Origin: Propionicimonas paludicola | GTDB lineage: Bacteria; Actinomycetota; Actinomycetes; Propionibacteriales; Propionibacteriaceae | Length of the DNA stretch: 64,000 bases | Direction of reading: 5' to 3' | NCBI RefSeq assembly: GCF_002563675.1 | Contig: NZ_PDJC01000001.1 | Coordinates: forward strand, 3,038,001-3,102,000 | Part shown: positions 330 to 63,702 of the stretch, piece after piece | How positions within the stretch are numbered: the stretch's first letter is position 1 | Layout of the letters: each line of letters starts with the position of its first letter | Position numbers and translations under genes: made by a program | Notes under the pieces: generated by a model | What the model was told of the DNA's origin: nothing | The model's input: only the letters and a program-made list of their open reading frames with translations | Databases searched by the model: none

Positions 330-467
330 GGGATTCCCTTGGAGGTGGTGCTTGCACCCTAGCGACTCGGCCGCCGCCGGTTGGGGCGTCCGCCATCAGA
401 AATTCGGCGGCAGCTCCGACGCTCGACGGTGCCGTGCCCCGGACGTTCGGGACGAGTGGGCGTCCGA

Positions 468-2075
468 TCAGGCCGCAGCCAGCGGAGACGGGTTGGCCTC
501 GGCCGTCGGCGCCCAGGCGGCCGGTGAGCTGGACGGCACCACGGCCGGATCCGGAGTCGCGCTGGCCGACAGGCCGGAGCTCGACACCACGGCGGTGGGC
601 TCGGAGTAGACCTTGATCGTCCGATACCCCGACTTCGCCGCGGTGACCTTCACGGTGATCGTCTTCCCGACCAGGTCGGACGGAAGCACCACGGTGGCTT
701 TGGTTGCCTTGGCGATCGCGACCCCGTCCGCGTACCACTGATAGGTCAGCTTCGACGGCTTGGGCGACCAGGTGCCCGTGATCACACTGAGCGTGGCGCC
801 GGCCACCAGCGAGCCACGCACCTGCGGGATCGGGGCGCTGGTGAACTGGCGTAGCACTGTGGTCTTTGCCGAGGTCAGCGTCGTTGTCTGGTAGCCGGTG
901 CTGGCGCCGGTGATCTTCACTGAGAGCTGGTGCTTGTTGTCGGAGCTCTTCACCTTGTAGGTGGCCTTCGTGGCACCGGAGATCTTCTTGCCGTCGCGCA
1001 GCCACTGGTAGCTGACCTTCTCCGGCTCCGGGGTCCAGCTGCTCACCCCGGCGGTCAGCGTCTTGCCCGGGGAGAACACTCCGGAGATGCCTGCGGCACC
1101 GGTGCTGAACTTCGCCAGGCTGACCTTGGCGGTGGCCGCCGAGGTGCGGGTGGTGGCGCTGCCGCTGCTGGGCTTGGCGGTGATCTGGACGCGCAGAGTC
1201 TTGCCGCCGAGGCTCGGGGCAATCTCGAGCGAGGCCTGGTCGGCACCCTCGATCGAGGTGCCGTTGGCCTGCCACTGGTAGCTCAGCTTCGCGTTTCCGG
1301 TGGCCCAGTTGCCGGTGGTGGCCTGCAGCGTGCGTCCGATCTGGGCGGTGCCGGTGATGATCGGGACGGCCTTGGGAGCGGCCACGAACTTCGCCGGGAC
1401 GAAGGTCTCCTGGTACGGCCAGGTCTTGTCGGTGGACCGCGGGATCACCGGAAGGCAGCCGGGCTGCCCGGTGCCGCCGCAGGCGCCCTCGAGCGGGACG
1501 GTGACCGGCACTCCGGTCCACCAGGACGTCTGTTGGTAGGCGCCGTCCCAGGTCAGCGAGATGTGGACGTGGTCCTTGTGGTTGGCCGTGTAGGAGCCGC
1601 GGTCTGCTTCGTTCCGCCAGCCGCGGTCGGGGGCGTAGGTGGCCCACAGCTGCTGGTTCCAGATGATGTACATGATCCCGAGCCGACGCGCGATCTCGCC
1701 GTTGTTGGCGGTGATCCAGGTCAGTGCCTTGTCGACCTGGGCCACGTCGGAGGCGTTCTTGACGTCCATGTGCCAGTCCAGCGCCCGTCCCTCCTTGTGT
1801 TCGGAGGTGCCGCCGGTGGTGCAGGCGCGCGAGATTCCGGACGACGATCCGCCCCAGGTGGTGATCAGCAGGTTCAGCAGCGCGGTCGCGCCCGGCTTCG
1901 CGCTGGGCGAGCAGGTGGTCTGCGGCTGATAGCCCGGGTGGGCGTCGATCACATTGCTGGACAGGCTGGCCGGCGGTGCCGGGACCGGATCGGCAGCCCG
2001 TGCGGCCGTGGGCACGGCGACCCACAAGGCGATGCTGGTGAGCACCGCGATGCTGGCGCGGACGAGCTTGGGCAT
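468..2075 (-). CDS. Secreted M15-like zinc peptidase with three Ig-like repeats
   Basis: 535 residues. A signal peptide ends near residue 27 (ARA-A). Residues about 43-190 form an M15/LAS-like catalytic domain: SEHKEGRALD gives His93 and Asp100, and KDHVHI gives His169 and His171, the usual His-Asp-His zinc set. By family, it would cut peptidoglycan cross-links or stem peptides outside the cell. Residues about 238-318, 322-408 and 412-497 are three copies of an Ig-like repeat with a central YQW motif and a closing GY. The last 40 residues are a Ser/Pro/Ala tail with no sorting signal, so the protein is probably released. Its 5' leader carries a long hairpin at 2121-2178. The enzymatic role is inferred from motifs. 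Confidence 0.8.
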   Translation of the reverse strand: MPKLVRASIAVLTSIALWVAVPTAARAADPVPAPPASLSSNVIDAHPGYQPQTTCSPSAKPGATALLNLLITTWGGSSSGISRACTTGGTSEHKEGRALDWHMDVKNASDVAQVDKALTWITANNGEIARRLGIMYIIWNQQLWATYAPDRGWRNEADRGSYTANHKDHVHISLTWDGAYQQTSWWTGVPVTVPLEGACGGTGQPGCLPVIPRSTDKTWPYQETFVPAKFVAAPKAVPIITGTAQIGRTLQATTGNWATGNAKLSYQWQANGTSIEGADQASLEIAPSLGGKTLRVQITAKPSSGSATTRTSAATAKVSLAKFSTGAAGISGVFSPGKTLTAGVSSWTPEPEKVSYQWLRDGKKISGATKATYKVKSSDNKHQLSVKITGASTGYQTTTLTSAKTTVLRQFTSAPIPQVRGSLVAGATLSVITGTWSPKPSKLTYQWYADGVAIAKATKATVVLPSDLVGKTITVKVTAAKSGYRTIKVYSEPTAVVSSSGLSASATPDPAVVPSSSPAAWAPTAEANPSPLAAA

Positions 2076-2411
2076 GCACTTCTTCCTGATCGGGGGATCC
2101 GAGTCAGAACGCTAGGCGACCACGGTTCGTCGGCGCCCTTCTGCGTGCAGATATCCGCAGAGAAGGCCGCGAACCGTGAGTAGGGGTTGAGAGTTCGCCG
2201 CGCTCAGTGATTGGTGAATTCGGCTGTCACCACCGGGAACACCGGTGACGCCGTTTGGTCGCAATTTGGCCCGGGCCGGGCGCTGCCTTCGTCTCGACGG
2301 GCTTTCCGGCGGCAGCAATAATGGACCTACTGGGAAGTCCATCGGGGGATGGCGGTGATGTTGTCGCGCCCTCGTGAGATTCTGTTCACAACGTTCGGGG
2401 GGCTGGACGGC
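2076..2411. other. Divergent intergenic region between two Ig-repeat exoprotein genes
   Basis: This 336-base region holds the upstream sequences of the minus-strand peptidase and the plus-strand gene starting at 2412. Visible structure: a long inverted repeat at 2121-2178 (listed separately) and a shorter one with arms GTCACC (2226-2231) and GGTGAC (2244-2249). No convincing coding frame is present. An in-frame ATG at 2349 could extend the downstream gene, but it would put 21 residues in front of a well-formed signal peptide. Confidence 0.5.
2121..2178 (-). promoter_or_regulatory. Long hairpin in the 5' leader of the M15-like peptidase gene
   Basis: Outer arms CACGGTTCG (2121-2129) and CGAACCGTG (2170-2178) pair perfectly. 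Inside, CCTTCTGCG (2137-2145) pairs with CGCAG plus AGAAGG (2156-2166) apart from a two-base bulge. It lies about 46-103 bases before the start codon on the minus strand. That position suits a structured mRNA leader or an operator. I could not match it to a riboswitch class that I know. Confidence 0.4.
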
Positions 2412-3962
2412 ATGTCCAAGAAGCGCATTTCACTGGCTGTGGCCGGACTGCGCGCTGCCCTGATTGCCGTGCTCGGATTGGCCTTTGTGGCCTCCGGCTT
2501 TGCCGCGCCGGCGGTGGCCGGGGGATACGGATCGATTCTCGGAACGGTCACCCTGCCCCAGGGCGGGTCGGCCGCGAATGCCCAGGTATGCCTTTTCACT
2601 GAGCCGTCCGGCGGCTGGTCGAGCGAGTGCACCTCCACCGACGCGTCCGGCGGGTTCCAGTTCGCCGGGCTGGCCCCGGGCAGCTACTCACTGTCGGCAT
2701 CGGCGGACGGCTACGTCACCAGCTATCTGGGCGGCAGCCCCTACCTGAAGGACCGGCTCGTGGTTGAGCTCGGCGGCGGTGCGAGCCTTCACCAGGATCT
2801 GCAGTTGCGCGCCGGGGCCACGATCACCGGGAAGGTGCTCGACAGCGCCGGACGTCCATTCGGCTACGACCTCACGCTCAGCCTGCGGGGACCGGCCGAG
2901 GATCCCCGGCCAGGCTCGGAGTTGCAGCCCGGCACTCCGGCCGACGGACGGCGTCCGTATCGCTTCGGGCCGGTGCCGGACGGCACCTATCGGGTCGTAG
3001 CCGAGTCGACGGTCACCTGCACTCCGCAGCAGGTCGACCCGTGCCAGTGGGCCGAGACCACCGTGGTGGTGGCCGGCGGACGGGCGGTCACCGCACCGAC
3101 CCTGCGGCTGATCGGTGGCACCGGCTTTTCCGGGACGGTCAGTTTCCCGGCCGCCGTCGGACCGGATCAGCCGCCGAGTCGGCTCTACCAACTCGACGTC
3201 TACACCCGCGCCGGCGTGCTGGTGCGCTCCGGGGTCTACGAGGCGTCCACGGTTCGCGGGACAGCGCTGCGGGGCAGCTACCAGCTGCACCTGAAGCCGG
3301 GCCGCTACCAGCTGCGCTTCACTCCGGTGGACGGCAGCGCCAGCTACTGCCTGGGCTGCGCCGGCGGCATGACCACCACCACCGGGCGGCTGCGCAACCT
3401 CGGCACCATCACGTTGGCCGGGCCGGTGAAGGCACTGAGCACCGGCGGGGTCCGGATCGTCGGCACGCCGACGGTCGGTCAGACCCTGACAGCGGTCACC
3501 ACCGGCTGGCCCGTCAGCGCCCGACTGCAGTACCAGTGGTACCGCAACGGTCATCGGATCCGGGGCGCACAGCAGGCCACGCGAGTGCTCACTGCCGGTG
3601 ATCTACATCGCCGGATCTCGGTGCGGGTGCGGGCCAGCCTGGACCGGGCGAGGTCGGCTCAGGTCGTTGCCGGCCTGAGTACCCGGATCAGGTCGGGCCA
3701 ACTCAGCGGCGGCACAGCGACGATCACGGGATCGCCGATGGTCGGCCAGCGACTTGTCGCCGGCAGCACCGGCTGGCAGCCGGCCGGGGTGCGATTGCAC
3801 TACTACTGGCTGCGTGATGGCCGCACGATTCGGCGGGCCACAGGACGCAGCTATCAGGTGCGGGCCGCCGATCTGGGCCATCAGGTTTCGGTGCGGGTGA
3901 CAGCTGAAAAGGCCGGCTATCGGAGTTCCATGGTGATTTCGACGGCGCTGACAATCAACTGA
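2412..3962 (+). CDS. Secreted protein with carboxypeptidase-regulatory-like and Ig-like domains
   Basis: 516 residues from the ATG at 2412, chosen because MSKKRISLAVAG begins a normal signal peptide (cleavage near residue 37, AVA-G) and a G-rich stretch lies about nine bases upstream. An ATG at 2349 is the alternative. Residues about 41-110 (GTVTLPQGG, VCLF, FAGLAPGSYSLSASADGY) resemble the prealbumin-like fold of carboxypeptidase-regulatory domains, and a second such segment follows (GATITGKVLDSAGRPFG). The last roughly 165 residues are two Ig-like repeats with YQWYRNGHRIRGA and YYWLRDGRTIRRA. No catalytic motif is visible. It probably serves cell-surface or matrix binding; the ligand is unknown. 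Confidence 0.75.
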   Translation: MSKKRISLAVAGLRAALIAVLGLAFVASGFAAPAVAGGYGSILGTVTLPQGGSAANAQVCLFTEPSGGWSSECTSTDASGGFQFAGLAPGSYSLSASADGYVTSYLGGSPYLKDRLVVELGGGASLHQDLQLRAGATITGKVLDSAGRPFGYDLTLSLRGPAEDPRPGSELQPGTPADGRRPYRFGPVPDGTYRVVAESTVTCTPQQVDPCQWAETTVVVAGGRAVTAPTLRLIGGTGFSGTVSFPAAVGPDQPPSRLYQLDVYTRAGVLVRSGVYEASTVRGTALRGSYQLHLKPGRYQLRFTPVDGSASYCLGCAGGMTTTTGRLRNLGTITLAGPVKALSTGGVRIVGTPTVGQTLTAVTTGWPVSARLQYQWYRNGHRIRGAQQATRVLTAGDLHRRISVRVRASLDRARSAQVVAGLSTRIRSGQLSGGTATITGSPMVGQRLVAGSTGWQPAGVRLHYYWLRDGRTIRRATGRSYQVRAADLGHQVSVRVTAEKAGYRSSMVISTALTIN

Positions 3963-4118
3963 GCGCTGTCGCTTCCACGCCCAGTCAGCATTAGCGCTGG
4001 CGATCCTCTCATTCCCAGAGGACCGGCCCACCTCGGCCCCTACACTGAGGATCCAGTCTCGGCGGGAGTGTTGAATTTCTCCCGGCCGGTCTTCGAGGAG
4101 CGGACCCGGGGGTGTTGG

Positions 4119-6557
4119 ATGCGGCTATTCCGTCGGACGGCTGTGGCCGTTCTGGCTGTGTTCAGCCTGGCCGTGGGCGCGGCCCCGTCCGCCATGGCCG
4201 CCGACCCGGTGATCACTTTCTCGGTGTCGGGCGCGAGCAACTTCGGGGTCTACCTGTGCCCGTGGTCTGGTTCGACCTACACCTGCGGTGATCCGCTCAC
4301 TCCTACCGCATCGGCAGTCAGTGTGCCGATGGCCGATCTCACTGCCGGAGGTAAGTACGCCATCGGGGTCAAGAAGTCTGGCTACTGGGACCAGTGGTGG
4401 CATCAGTCCGGGTTCAGCACGGTCAAGCCGACCTCGACCGGTTCCGGTGAGTACGTCAGCGCGGGCGCGAGTTCGATCGCCCTGGGCACCGCCACCATGA
4501 AGCGGAAGTACCAGCTATCCGGCTCGGTTACGGCCGATGCGAACACCCGGCTGGGCGGGATCGAGGTCGGCATCTACGCCAACCTGTCCGCAGTCGCAGC
4601 TGGGACCCCGCTGACCGGCCTCACCACCAGTGGCGATGGCACCGACAAGGATCTGGGCACCTACGACATTGACATCCCCTATAGCGCACCCGGCACCTTC
4701 GTCGTCGGCCTTAAGGACCCCAGCGCCGCCTATGCACAAGCCACCGAGACGGTCAGCCTCGCAGCTGCGGCTACCAGCCGCGACTTCACGATGAGGGTCA
4801 ACGACCACATGATCACGGTCGGTGGGACGGTTGTGCTTGGCGATGCCGCTACTCCGAGTGGGGTGTCGGTGGATGCCTTCGTCTGGAACACCGACTCCAC
4901 CTGGGCGCCCGCGGCTTCGGAGGAGAGCATCGTCGACGGCAGCTACCAGCTGTCGATCCCGGAGGGGCGGACCTTCACGCTGCGCTTCAGCAAGGTCGGC
5001 TACCGGACGGTCTGGCTGGGTGGCTCCTATCCGGGCTCGCCGACGGACACCAACAGTCGAGTGGCGAACTCGCTGACCAGCATCGACCTGGTGACGCTGC
5101 CGGAGTGGACGTCCGCCTTCATGTCGGTCGCCGGCCAGAACGAGGACGCCTGCAATCCCACCAAGGGAGGCATGACGCTGGCGGCCGGCGGAGACTTGAA
5201 TCAGGCCGTGATGAACCTCGGCTTTGAGATCTCCTTCTGGGGGAAGAAGGGGTCGAACCTGGTTGTCACCGACCGCGGTATCGCCTTCCTCGCGAACGAT
5301 AAGGACTCCAGCTTCAACCGCACCGAGATCCCCGACCTGGGCACCTGGTCGGGGGCGCCGGTGCTCGCCCCGCTGTGGTTCGACGGTGACCTCTCCGGTG
5401 CCGTCGCCGACTCGGTCACCTACGGCGCCGCAGACGGGGTCGCCTGTATCCGCTGGAACGACGTCGGCCACTACAGCGCGGACGACAGTGCACCGAACAC
5501 CTTCCAGCTGATCATCACCTCCAGGTCCGGCGCGGCCGGACGATCGGCCGGTGACTTTGACCTGACGTTCAACTACGACCAGGTGCAGTGGGACGCCTCC
5601 GGCACAGCGCGGGTCGGCTACACGGCCGGCGATCGGACTCGCGGCCACTACTGGGTGAACCCGGGCGTGGCCGGCGCCATCGTCGACGGTGGCTCGAGCC
5701 CGCTGATCGCGTCCTCGCTGGGCAGCAGCACCCCGGGTCGCTACGTCTTCGAAGTGCACAACGCTCTGGTGGCCGCCGGACCGCCGACGATCACCGGCAC
5801 TCCGATCGTCGGGGCCACCCTCACCGGGCACGCCAGCACCTGGTCGCCCACTCCCGACTCGCTCAGCTACCAGTGGAAGCTGGACGGTCAACCGGTGTCG
5901 ACGGCGTCCAGCTACAAGGTGCCCAGCAAGTCCGAGGGCAAGCCGATCACGCTCACCGTGACCGCGCAGAAGACCGGGCTCACCACGGTCACCTCGACCG
6001 TGTCGGCGGGCACGGTGCTGCGGGTGTTCAGCAGCCAGCCCACCCCGAAGCTGTCCGGGACGGTGAAGGTCGGCTCGACCCTGACCGCCAAGCCGGGTAC
6101 CTGGTCTCCGGCGGCGACCCTGAGCTACCAGTGGTTCCGAGGCAGCTCGGCGATCTCCGGTGCCACCAAGAGCAAGTACAAGGTCCAACTGGCCGACGTG
6201 GGCCAGAAGCTCTCGGCCCGAGTCACCGCCAGCAAGGCCGGCTATCTCGGCGTGACCAAGGCGTCCGCGGCGACCAAGACCGTGCCGAAGGTGACCATGA
6301 AGGCGAGTACGCCGAAGATCACCGGCACCACCAAGGTCGGATCGACGCTGGGGGTGAGCAGTGGCTCGTGGACCTCCGGGGTCACGTTCAGCTACCAGTG
6401 GTACCGCTCGGGCAAGGCGATCAATGGGGCCACCGGCTCGACCTATCTGCTCACGATCGCGGACAAGGGCAAGACGCTCACGGTGAAGGTCACCGGAGTC
6501 CGCGCCGGTTACACGACGGCTGCCAAGACGTCCAAGTCGTCCAAGCGGATTACCTAG
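4119..6557 (+). CDS. Secreted nidogen-domain-like protein with three Ig-like repeats
   Basis: 812 residues from the ATG at 4119 (MRLFRRTAVAVLAVFS, signal peptide to about AMA-A). An earlier ATG at 4068 would add a charged 17-residue front. Residues about 30-330 hold beta-rich repeats of prealbumin or carboxypeptidase-regulatory type. Residues about 345-548 look like a nidogen-like (NIDO) domain: APLWFDGDLSG, GVACIRWNDVGHY, NTFQLIITSR, FDLTFNYDQVQWD and ARVGYTAGD occur in that order. Residues about 555-812 are three Ig-like YQW repeats. There is no membrane anchor. In animals NIDO domains occur in matrix proteins, so adhesion or matrix assembly is plausible but inferred. It is co-oriented with its neighbours. 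Confidence 0.75.
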   Translation: MRLFRRTAVAVLAVFSLAVGAAPSAMAADPVITFSVSGASNFGVYLCPWSGSTYTCGDPLTPTASAVSVPMADLTAGGKYAIGVKKSGYWDQWWHQSGFSTVKPTSTGSGEYVSAGASSIALGTATMKRKYQLSGSVTADANTRLGGIEVGIYANLSAVAAGTPLTGLTTSGDGTDKDLGTYDIDIPYSAPGTFVVGLKDPSAAYAQATETVSLAAAATSRDFTMRVNDHMITVGGTVVLGDAATPSGVSVDAFVWNTDSTWAPAASEESIVDGSYQLSIPEGRTFTLRFSKVGYRTVWLGGSYPGSPTDTNSRVANSLTSIDLVTLPEWTSAFMSVAGQNEDACNPTKGGMTLAAGGDLNQAVMNLGFEISFWGKKGSNLVVTDRGIAFLANDKDSSFNRTEIPDLGTWSGAPVLAPLWFDGDLSGAVADSVTYGAADGVACIRWNDVGHYSADDSAPNTFQLIITSRSGAAGRSAGDFDLTFNYDQVQWDASGTARVGYTAGDRTRGHYWVNPGVAGAIVDGGSSPLIASSLGSSTPGRYVFEVHNALVAAGPPTITGTPIVGATLTGHASTWSPTPDSLSYQWKLDGQPVSTASSYKVPSKSEGKPITLTVTAQKTGLTTVTSTVSAGTVLRVFSSQPTPKLSGTVKVGSTLTAKPGTWSPAATLSYQWFRGSSAISGATKSKYKVQLADVGQKLSARVTASKAGYLGVTKASAATKTVPKVTMKASTPKITGTTKVGSTLGVSSGSWTSGVTFSYQWYRSGKAINGATGSTYLLTIADKGKTLTVKVTGVRAGYTTAAKTSKSSKRIT

Positions 6558-61580: not shown

Positions 61581-61961
61581 ATGCTTGCTCGTCTCCTCGC
61601 CAGCGCGGCCGCCCTCGCCGTAGCCACTTGGTGGCTGCCTGGAATCAGCATTCAGGGCCATCAGGACACCGCAGGTCAGGTGATCACCATGCTCGTGGTG
61701 GCCTTCCTGTTCGGTGTGGTTAATGCCGTCGTGAAGCCGCTGTTCAAGTTCGCTTCTGCCCCGTTGATCCTCCTTTCGCTCGGCATCTTCCTGTTGGTGA
61801 TCAATGCCTGCCTGCTGATGCTGGTCTCCTGGGTTTCCGGGCAGGTGGGCGTCCCCTGGCATGTGGACGACTGGGGGAGCGCTTTCTGGGGCGCCCTGAT
61901 CGTCTCGGTGGTCAGTTTCATCGTCAACGCGTTCTTCAAGCGGGGCGAGGAGCACCGGTGA
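61581..61961 (+). CDS. Phage-holin-4_2-like membrane protein
   Basis: 126 residues with four hydrophobic segments. TWWLPGISIQG, FLFGVVNAVVKPLFKFASAPLILLSLGIFLLVINACLLML match the phage_holin_4_2 (YvlD-like) family, widespread in chromosomes and not usually phage-linked. Overlaps the phosphatase start by four bases. Confidence 0.88.
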   Translation: MLARLLASAAALAVATWWLPGISIQGHQDTAGQVITMLVVAFLFGVVNAVVKPLFKFASAPLILLSLGIFLLVINACLLMLVSWVSGQVGVPWHVDDWGSAFWGALIVSVVSFIVNAFFKRGEEHR

Positions 61962-62440
61962 GTCAACCGGTGATCTGTTTCGTCTGCTGGGGCAATATCT
62001 GCCGCTCACCGATGGCTCAGGTGGTCGCCGAGGCCCGGGCCGCCTACGAGCAGCTGCGCGGCGTGCAGTTCACCAGCGCGGGAGTCAGCTCCGAGGAGCA
62101 GGGCAATCCCATGGACCCGCGGGCAATCGCGGTGCTGCGGGCGAACGGCTACTCGCCGGGGATGCACTCCGCTCACCAGATCACCCCGGACGAGATTCGC
62201 AGCGCGGCGATGCTGATCGGCATGGAGCCGCTGCACCTGTCCCGGATCCGCCAGGTCGTCTCGGATGCGACCAACCTCTATCTGATGTCGGACTTCATCC
62301 CGGCCGCCGAGCCCGGTTCGAGCATCGAAGATCCGTGGTACGGCGACGACTCGGACTTCAAGGTGACCCTTGAGCAGATCCAGTCGGCCATGCCTGAGGT
62401 GATTCGGCGCGCTCGCGAGCTGGCCTCGGGACGGGCGTAG
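61958..62440 (+). CDS. Low-molecular-weight protein-tyrosine phosphatase
   Basis: 160 residues from a GTG (GTGA overlap). P-loop C10-WGNIC-R16-S (VCWGNICRSPMAQ) and the general acid Asp125 in SIEDPWYG. Dephosphorylates phosphotyrosine, or arginine-phosphate in related enzymes. Its tail runs almost to the promoter of the leader peptide for the ligase gene downstream. Confidence 0.94.
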   Translation: MSQPVICFVCWGNICRSPMAQVVAEARAAYEQLRGVQFTSAGVSSEEQGNPMDPRAIAVLRANGYSPGMHSAHQITPDEIRSAAMLIGMEPLHLSRIRQVVSDATNLYLMSDFIPAAEPGSSIEDPWYGDDSDFKVTLEQIQSAMPEVIRRARELASGRA

Positions 62441-62443
62441 CAT
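62438..62443 (+). promoter_or_regulatory. Possible -10 box for a leaderless leader-peptide transcript
   Basis: TAGCAT lies seven bases before the ATG at 62451, the spacing expected when transcription begins at the A of the start codon. It overlaps the stop codon of the phosphatase gene. No clear -35 box. Confidence 0.45.
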
Positions 62444-62450
62444 GGCGTCC

Positions 62451-62522
62451 ATGACCAGCCAGCGATTTTGCTGCCCCCGGCCGGGCGTCGGCCGCGGGGG
62501 CTGCTGCGTGCGCAGGTCCTAG
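62451..62522 (+). CDS. Leader peptide with Phe-Cys-Cys and Cys-Cys codons
   Basis: 23 residues, stop TAG at 62520-62522. It begins MTSQRFCCP and ends GCCVRRS, with four Cys codons as two adjacent pairs and one Phe codon. No ribosome site precedes it, which fits a leaderless start after the -10 box. Short cysteine-rich leader ORFs act as cysteine-sensing attenuators in mycobacteria. It precedes a PheS-like ligase gene, and ribosome position on it would decide pairing of the 62472-62550 segments. Protein itself probably has no other role. Confidence 0.5.
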   Translation: MTSQRFCCPRPGVGRGGCCVRRS

Positions 62523-62550
62523 CGAGTCGTCCTGATCGCCTGGCCGGGGG
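62472..62550 (+). promoter_or_regulatory. Mutually exclusive hairpins in the PheS-like ligase leader
   Basis: GCCCCCGGCC (62472-62481) can pair with the GGCCGCGGGGGC segment just after it (62490-62501, small bulge) or, nine bases, with GGCCGGGGG (62542-62550). The first hairpin lies inside the leader peptide reading frame, so a ribosome stalled on Cys codons could choose between the two. The far segment precedes the ligase ribosome site by about 25 bases. No T-run is seen, so control of translation or of termination by Rho is also possible. Confidence 0.45.
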
Positions 62551-62586
62551 TGTGAACCGCCCGTCCAGACGATCCGAGAGACTCCC

Positions 62587-63702
62587 ATGACTACCTATCT
62601 GACCCCTGACCAACTTGTGCAGGCGTTGACCCTGCGCGATCTGAGCAACCCCGAGAGCGGTCCTCACGCTCTGCAACTCCTGCTGGACGAACTGCTGACC
62701 GCCGTCACCGGACGGCTCGGCTGCAGCCTGCGGCTGGTCCGCAACCCGCCGGTGGTGTCGGTGGGCGACAACTACGACCGGCTCGGCTACCGGCTCGACG
62801 ACGTCACCCGGCAGCAGCGCTACACCCGCTACCTGAGCCCGACCACCATGCTGCGCAGCCACACCAGCGCCGAGCTACCCAAGGCGCTCGAGGCCTACTC
62901 CGGCTGCGGCGACCAGGTGGACGAACTGATTGCCGTGCCCGGCCTGGTCTACCGGCGCGACGTGGTGGACCGGCATCACGTCGGCGAGCCGCACCAGCTG
63001 GACCTGTGGCGGGTCTGGTCGCACCCCGGGGCCGACGACGCCCAGCTCGAGGAACTGATCGAGGTGGTGGTGCAGGCGGTGCTGCCCGGGGTGAGCTGGC
63101 GGACGACGTCGGTCGAGCACCCCTACACCCGAGCCGGCCGGCAGGTGGACGTCCGGCATCAGGGGCAGTGGCTGGAGCTGGCCGAGTGTGGCCTGATTCA
63201 CCCGGACGTGCTGGCCCGCAGCGGGCTGGACCCGTCCGACTGGTCGGGGTTGGCCCTGGGGATGGGCCTGGATCGGGCGCTGATGCTGCGCAAGGGCATT
63301 CCGGACATCCGCTATCTGCGCTCGTCACAGCCGCGAATCAAGGAGCAATTGCTCGACCTGGACCCGTGGCGAGAGGTGTCGCTGCTGCCGCCGATCCGCC
63401 GAGACCTTTCAGTAGTGGTGGACGCCGACCGCTCCGACGAGCTGCTCGGTGACCAGATCCGGCTGGCGCTGCGGGATCGGCTGGACGATATCGAGTCGGT
63501 CGAGGTGCTGGCTCGGACGCCCTATGCCGAACTGCCCACGGCGGCGCGGGAGCGGCTGGGGCTGGCTACCAATCAGGTGAATGCGCTGGTGCGGGTGACG
63601 TTGCGTCCGCTGGGCTGGACGATGACCGACCAGGAGGCCAATGACCTGCGCAACCGGGTGTACCTGGCGATCCACCAGGGGCCCTACCGGGAGTTGGCCT
63701 AG
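62587..63702 (+). CDS. PheS-related ligase of unknown substrate
   Basis: 371 residues. Class II aminoacyl-tRNA-synthetase-like core: motif 2-like TTMLRSHTSAELPKALE and motif 3-like GLALGMGLDRALMLRKGIPDIRYLRSS. The C-terminal 95 residues match the FDX-ACB domain of PheT (LPPIRRDLSVVVDADRSDELLGDQIRLALRDRLDDIESVEVL, LVRVTLRPLGWTMTDQEAND). The PheT subunit and its other domains are absent. A standalone fusion like this is annotated elsewhere in actinobacteria as a PheS-related ligase of unknown role. The leader with Phe and Cys codons suggests a link to cysteine or phenylalanine. Confidence 0.88.
   Translation: MTTYLTPDQLVQALTLRDLSNPESGPHALQLLLDELLTAVTGRLGCSLRLVRNPPVVSVGDNYDRLGYRLDDVTRQQRYTRYLSPTTMLRSHTSAELPKALEAYSGCGDQVDELIAVPGLVYRRDVVDRHHVGEPHQLDLWRVWSHPGADDAQLEELIEVVVQAVLPGVSWRTTSVEHPYTRAGRQVDVRHQGQWLELAECGLIHPDVLARSGLDPSDWSGLALGMGLDRALMLRKGIPDIRYLRSSQPRIKEQLLDLDPWREVSLLPPIRRDLSVVVDADRSDELLGDQIRLALRDRLDDIESVEVLARTPYAELPTAARERLGLATNQVNALVRVTLRPLGWTMTDQEANDLRNRVYLAIHQGPYRELA

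Follow-up and report, generated by a model that had tools for sequence, protein, structure and literature searches.

A leaderless reading frame with a conserved CGA-UUU codon pair as a probable Phe-tRNA-responsive attenuator of srmL

The leader at positions 62438-62586, directly upstream of the PheS-related ligase gene srmL, is interpreted here as a ribosome-mediated attenuator that senses the supply of Phe-tRNA through a single CGA-UUU codon pair in a leaderless ORF, with a probability of about 0.7. The window is the whole analysed stretch of 64,000 nucleotides from Propionicimonas paludicola, and all of its features described below lie on the forward strand. The leader is real and conserved, and a regulatory role is most likely. 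The original prediction had proposed an amino-acid attenuator in front of a PheS-like ligase, with cysteine as the signal. Its attenuator logic is retained, whereas cysteine is replaced by phenylalanine, which it had named in its title, because conservation falls on the Phe codon and modelling locates the switch at or next to it.

In the proposed mechanism, region 1, which follows closely on the Phe codon, would form the ON structure with region 4, situated some 50 nt upstream of srmL. Region 4 would also be used by the OFF structure, which would be an intrinsic terminator in some lineages and a hairpin sequestering the Shine-Dalgarno (SD) sequence in the window. While Phe-tRNA is lacking, a ribosome held up at UUU would halt just short of region 1 and break the lower stem of the hairpin within the ORF, so that helix 1:4 could form and srmL would be expressed. 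When Phe-tRNA is supplied, the ribosome would advance and cover region 1, and the OFF structure would result. This order of events suggests that a shortage of Phe-tRNA turns srmL on.

The leader ORF and its conservation

The -10-like hexamer TAGCAT (62438-62443) is suitably placed for a leaderless transcript, with a gap of seven bases to the ATG at 62451. This ATG opens an ORF of 23 codons (62451-62522) that encodes MTSQRFCCPRPGVGRGGCCVRRS, ends with a stop codon at 62520-62522 and has no SD site, as originally predicted. The hexamer overlaps the TAG stop codon of an upstream LMW-phosphatase-like gene (61958-62440). A second in-frame ATG at 62442, which would give 26 codons, overlaps the hexamer itself and is therefore excluded as a leaderless start from this promoter. 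The proposed sensor pair CGA UUU (Arg-Phe) is located at 62463-62468, and srmL (62587-63702, 371 aa) starts with the ATG at 62587. A comparison of the window with Rfam at gathering scores, T-box included, gave no matches.

The upstream regions of 77 srmL genes, including the window, were examined. The named sources are actinobacteria, myxobacteria or deltaproteobacteria, one cyanobacterium and one uncultured bacterium. Of these regions, 75 carry the leader, in actinobacteria and myxobacteria; 74 were parsed and one (L074) was recognised by eye. The parse itself returned 76 leaders, and two were dropped: the cyanobacterium Calothrix (L016), a chance parse in whose examined upstream stretch nothing like this leader can be recognised, and L074, for which the wrong ORF was chosen, its real leader exceeding the parse limit of 45 codons. 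The second srmL copy in genome G204 (L089) is without a Phe leader, and the SD-side part of its element nevertheless looks recognisable by eye. The 74 leaders are not independent of each other, as they form 28 clusters at 80% similarity, the largest with 37 members.

The core of the leader consists of an ATG or GTG start, Arg-Phe encoded as CGA TTT, and a C-rich sequence that sets in about 8 nt downstream of the first base of the Phe codon. A Phe codon is present in all 74 parsed leaders, which is partly by construction since the parse was anchored on it; it is TTT in 73 leaders and TTC in one. The Arg codon is CGA in 69 of 74, and the columns of both codons are invariant in the 16 leaders of the window's group. 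As the parse had demanded a Phe codon, the frame test was redone without forcing the frame. This test covered the 64 of the 77 regions in which CGATTT could serve as the anchor and TANNNT marked the start, excluding seven without the anchor and six without the hexamer, and every leader was in frame with CGATTT (64/64), at spacings of 12, 15, 18 and 27 nt. In 65 of the 74 homologs, the leader start has a TANNNT hexamer 5-8 nt upstream, compared with none of the 946 other ATG or GTG codons in the same segments, where it has to be considered that leader starts were scored partly by this hexamer. An SD-like 4-mer precedes 2/74 leader starts and 72/74 srmL starts, the latter being a biased count because these starts were chosen by their SD match. 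The motif CGATTTNNNNNCCCYSG has a single occurrence in the window's genome, which is fitted by the leader itself, and it is too loose for a judgement across the family among the matches listed.

TTT is rare in the long ORFs of the window (16 of 298 Phe codons). A point against the attenuator reading is that 65 of the 74 leaders contain only one Phe codon. The 46 tRNA matches in the window's genome include tRNA-Arg with the anticodons ACG, TCT, CCG and CCT, none with TCG, and a single tRNA-Phe with the anticodon GAA. Therefore, both CGA and UUU need wobble reading. Slow wobble reading would make the pair a sensitive sensor, in which CGA would form part of the ribosome pause.

Competing helices and the position of the ribosome

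The window leader can be divided into segments with alternative partners. Segment 0 (62453-62463) forms the lower stem of hairpin I in the predicted fold, together with segment 0' (62501-62518), which includes the second Cys-Cys codon pair. Region 1 (CCCCCGGCCG, 62474-62483) can pair either with region 2 (CGGCCGCGGGGG, 62489-62500) inside the ORF or with region 4 (TGGCCGGGGG, 62541-62550). Sequence, duplex and fold predictions oppose an anti-SD segment (aSD, 62524-62538) to a sequestered segment (62570-62584) that carries the SD-like GAGAGA of srmL (62576-62581). Since RNAalifold gave a poor global consensus for the window's group, the helices were tested singly.

For this, a partner-swap test was used, in which the duplex energy of partners from the same species was compared with that of permuted partners (5000 permutations), with segments chosen by position, in 35 of the 74 leaders after thinning for close relatives. 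The strongest signals, expressed as z values that are not strict probabilities because the sequences are related, were obtained for 1:4 (z -9.4, 0/5000 permutations as good), aSD:SD (z -7.6, 0/5000) and 1:2 (z -7.4, 0/5000), followed by 4:5 (z -3.7, 0/5000) and the lower stem 0:0' (z -3.7, 1/5000). The control pairings 2:4, 2:aSD, 2:5, 0:SD and 1:SD were unsupported, with 392 to 4971 of 5000 permutations as good. A pairing of region 2 with the aSD segment had looked good by eye as an anti-sequestor and was discarded as the swap tests gave it no support. When the 16 leaders of the window's group were tested alone, 1:4 (1/5000) and aSD:SD (0/5000) held, and 1:2 (415/5000) and 0:0' (314/5000) were weak.

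Region 4 was taken as the best-matching 10-mer, which has to be kept in mind both for its 10/10 pairs with region 1 in the window and for the paired changes in helix 1:4, namely a change from C-G to T-A in four of the 16 leaders of the window's group and the changes CCCCCGGACC/GGTCCGGGGG in L005, CCCCGTGCCC/GGGCACGGGG in L010 and CCCCGACCGG/CCGGTCGGGG in L062. The complementarity is just 8/10 in L004, L007 and L013. At the level of sequence comparison, the helices 1:2, 1:4 and aSD:SD are conserved, as are the in-frame ORF, the promoter position and the CGA-UUU pair. The embedded, mutually exclusive hairpins that had been predicted from the window alone are thus supported across orthologous leaders by the swap tests of 1:2, 1:4 and aSD:SD.

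The effect of the ribosome position on helix 1:4 was modelled with truncated transcripts that end just after region 4 and a ribosome footprint reaching to A-site +8. The placement of the helix edge near A+8 follows studies of the ribosomal helicase site. In this model, 37 of 40 leaders had a probability of 1:4 above 0.5 when UUU occupied the A site, and none of the 40 did when the ribosome was at codons +2, +4 or +8. The model also favours 1:4 (>0.5) without a ribosome (29/40) and with the ribosome at the stop codon (27/40). With a footprint of A+11, the threshold was passed in 22/40 leaders at Phe and in 38/40 one codon earlier.

Intrinsic terminators in which region 4 is the 3' arm were found in L004, L008, L012 and L166, the last from an Azotobacter plasmid. 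These four leaders and the phage leader L167 were scanned for the terminator probability at each ribosome position; L013 and L014, which have imperfect hairpins, were left out. With the A+8 footprint, the modelled terminator probability rose between Phe in the A site and the next codon from 0.00 to 0.96 in Azotobacter, from 0.04 to 1.00 in L012, from 0.17 to 1.00 in L008 and from 0.63 to 0.99 in L004. With A+11, the same rise occurred between the preceding codon and Phe (L166 0.00 to 0.96, L004 0.10 to 0.99, L008 0.12 to 1.00, L012 0.04 to 1.00). Some results do not fit. For ribosome positions farther upstream than Phe, L008 and L012 yield mixed values. Without a ribosome, the model predicts the ON state for Azotobacter (0.00) and the OFF state for L004, L008 and L012 (0.95-1.00). 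The models place the switch at the Phe codon or one codon before, and the Phe codon appears to sit at the hinge in all four terminator leaders, which are homologous and do not count as four independent proofs.

The leading rival explanation is positive translational coupling. Here, a ribosome finishing the leader would mask the anti-SD segment and region 2 and open the srmL SD, and the CGA-UUU pair would act as a gate, so that a shortage of Phe-tRNA keeps srmL OFF. An SD-opening-energy scan is in line with this: opening was favoured when the ribosome occupied the last codons or the stop, with a median of about -3 kcal/mol in the window's group, and not when it occupied Phe. Full-length equilibrium folding of the window's group likewise shows no SD opening at Phe: the SD is on average 73-79% paired at every ribosome position tested, and the probability of 1:4 is 0.16 with the ribosome at Phe. 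In the group of genus g30, SD pairing falls to 0.44 with the ribosome at the stop codon. In L004 and Azotobacter, read-through is also predicted when the ribosome has reached the last codons or the stop (terminator probability 0.00-0.02; at the stop codon, 0.00 and 0.01, respectively). However, in L008 and L012 the terminator stays formed with the ribosome at the stop codon (0.97 and 0.98), and all four terminator-type leaders flip to termination right at or after the Phe codon. Moreover, coupling would induce srmL with every completed round of translation. For these reasons, coupling is considered unlikely. For the preferred reading, in which Phe-tRNA shortage activates srmL, equilibrium SD accessibility was discarded as a read-out of stalling at Phe, as it showed no effect in the window's group. 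Because the equilibrium folds show no switch, the SD-type version in the window needs a kinetic argument, namely that 1:4 would form before the SD is made.

Cysteine, arrest peptides and related leaders

The window leader does contain the two Cys-Cys codon pairs of the original prediction, as TGCTGC at 62469-62474 and 62502-62507. They could point to a leaderless attenuator that senses cysteine, of the polycysteine type known from mycobacteria, in which pausing at Cys codons near the stop would open the SD hairpin. Both the window and genus g30 have Cys codons close to the stop, SD opening costs less energy with the ribosome on the last codons, as described above, and, in the available part of a 2005 actinobacterial survey, Cys runs near the stop of cys leaders provide a precedent (PMC1262725). 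Counted over all leaders, at least one Cys is present in 49/74 and a Cys-Cys pair in 36/74, but by cluster, any Cys occurs in 11 of 28, Cys-Cys in all members of only one and in any member of two, and a Cys within the last seven residues in five to six. Conservation of the Cys codons in orthologs therefore fails, and Cys sensing was rejected as a general logic. Among the leaders compared, the Cys-Cys pairs are a feature of the window and one genus. In genus g30, the second lineage with Cys runs, the codons CTGCTGCTG belong to a strand capable of pairing with sequence 5' of the Phe codon, according to the folds and the 0:0' swap test, and may for this reason be a by-product of pairing. Furthermore, no annotation ties srmL to sulphur metabolism. 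Overall, sensing of cysteine is judged improbable.

Still less weight is given to arrest of the ribosome by the nascent peptide, in which an RFxxPRPG-like peptide would stall on a drug or metabolite. Arg-Phe and, in many leaders, a downstream Pro are conserved at the peptide level, and a Cmx-type efflux gene adjoins srmL on one plasmid. Against this, the synonymous choices CGA and UUU are nearly fixed, beyond the needs of a peptide, and the distance from Phe to the stop varies from 18 to 102 nt. The least probable alternative, and a very improbable one, is autogenous control by SrmL binding to an RNA element with an incidental ORF, which would fit the conserved internal loop and helices but neither the 64 of 64 frames kept at four different spacings nor a leaderless promoter position that tracks the ORF start.

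A Phe-tRNA-responsive attenuator of srmL would have relatives among known systems. Vecchione and Sello reportedly described, in 2010, a ribosome-mediated attenuator of an auxiliary tryptophanyl-tRNA synthetase gene in Streptomyces. The srmL leader resembles it in preceding an auxiliary synthetase-type gene and in the proposed ribosome-mediated attenuation, and differs in its single CGA-UUU pair, its leaderless start and the use of region 1, just past the control codon, as the ON arm. The Phe attenuators of E. coli, the PheM leader of pheST and the pheA leader, share with it a Phe-coding leader before a PheS-type or Phe gene, and they have runs of Phe codons and SD-led starts. The polycysteine leaderless sORFs of mycobacteria, said to have been reported by Canestrari in 2020, are likewise leaderless short ORFs with control codons and SD-type translational control; unlike them, the srmL leader has no conserved Cys and a conserved Phe codon near the ORF start.

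As far as the available part of the 2005 survey describes it, the LEU element of actinobacterial leuA also combines a leader ORF, control codons and alternative folds involving the SD of the next gene, but gene and sequence are different, and only in LEU does the control codon run itself pair with the SD (PMC1262725). In the same part of this source, no conserved RNA structures are reported upstream of phenylalanine operons (PMC1262725). A literature search at the level of titles and abstract openings found no description of the srmL leader. It would be a Phe attenuator in Actinobacteria that senses by one rare codon pair instead of a codon run.

SrmL, its distribution and mobile copies

SrmL is a full member of the NCBIfam family NF051887, 'PheS-related mystery ligase SrmL' (519.9 bits, cut-off 300). 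The best PDB matches of its AlphaFold2 model (pLDDT 93.6) are structures of human mitochondrial PheRS (3cmq, TM 0.76 by query length, 21% identity), a monomer with a PheS core and an anticodon-binding tail. As in the mitochondrial enzyme, a PheS catalytic fold is combined with FDX-ACB; PF01409 scores above its cut-off, and PF03147 is weak (19.4 vs 31.1 bits). The curated pheS models remain below their cut-offs (91.6 vs 237.45 and 112.7 vs 258.35 bits), and the genome encodes a separate, ordinary PheS. The F-P-F motif, which forms the Phe pocket of PheRS, is replaced by H-P-Y in the window's SrmL, with H and Y invariant and P nearly so in 26 SrmL proteins. As this pocket differs from that of PheRS, Phe may not be the substrate of SrmL. 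Taken together, the PheRS-like model, the H-P-Y pocket and the separate PheS make it probable that SrmL serves as an auxiliary or specialised ligase connected with tRNA-Phe, on which it would be expected to act.

The distribution of srmL is patchy. With the window's own genome counted in each case, the gene is present in 1/30 genomes from the genus and 14/198 from the family, and in samples of the order and the phylum it was found in 60/391 and 3/396 genomes, respectively. Given its presence in only one of 30 genomes of the genus, srmL may have been acquired by the window's species. A scan of nine proteins flanking srmL at five loci revealed no partner common to the loci, and there are no tRNA genes near bacterial srmL in 34 loci.

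Beyond the 77 regions, two plasmid copies of srmL, from Glutamicibacter and Azotobacter, each carry a leader with the gene. On the Glutamicibacter plasmid (L165, 1323-2504), srmL is the copy that adjoins the Cmx-type gene, which is a chloramphenicol efflux gene. The L165 leader is nearly identical to that of L022. The Glutamicibacter plasmid unit appears to have been recently transferred.

Copies of srmL also occur in phages. In a 635-kb uncultured jumbo phage (L167), srmL is preceded both by a Phe-rich leader, MNTNTTFNFFFSHKMV, and by an intrinsic terminator that has a U run. With its FNFFF sequence, this leader is nearer to the E. coli Phe attenuators than the window leader is. By eye, the end of its ORF (GTCTGAG) can pair with the 5' arm of the terminator; the fold model of L167 showed no switch, with a terminator probability of 0.98-0.99 throughout. 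On two other jumbo-phage contigs, srmL lies inside dense tRNA arrays (L168, 2214-2288 and 3740-3814; L170, 639-715 and 2306-2380). The nearest tRNA gene on either side of srmL in L168 is tRNA-Phe(GAA), and in L170 the nearest upstream is tRNA-Val, followed by tRNA-Phe. No leader of either kind was found in the stretches examined of the phage loci L168-L170, and an Rfam search of L166, L167, L168 and L170 gave tRNA matches only.

The Phe-codon leader, the FNFFF leader of the phage and the tRNA-Phe neighbours in phages point to tRNA-Phe biology, so that the function of the 'mystery ligase' becomes directly testable. A broader and more doubtful proposal, put forward only tentatively, is that these leaders belong to a widely transferred attenuator class. 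In this class, a deliberately slow CGA-UUU pair would park the ribosome at the edge of an antiterminator or anti-sequestor arm and thereby control a PheRS-like enzyme that is mobile and monomeric, has a changed pocket and is also found on plasmids and in jumbo phages near tRNA-Phe. If this were true, SrmL would serve as a reserve or specialised ligase for tRNA-Phe, such as one that is resistant to an inhibitor or loads a Phe analogue. A more distant PheS-like protein with 27% identity and, by eye, an FPF-type pocket is encoded on a 121-kb viral contig (L171, 35-943).
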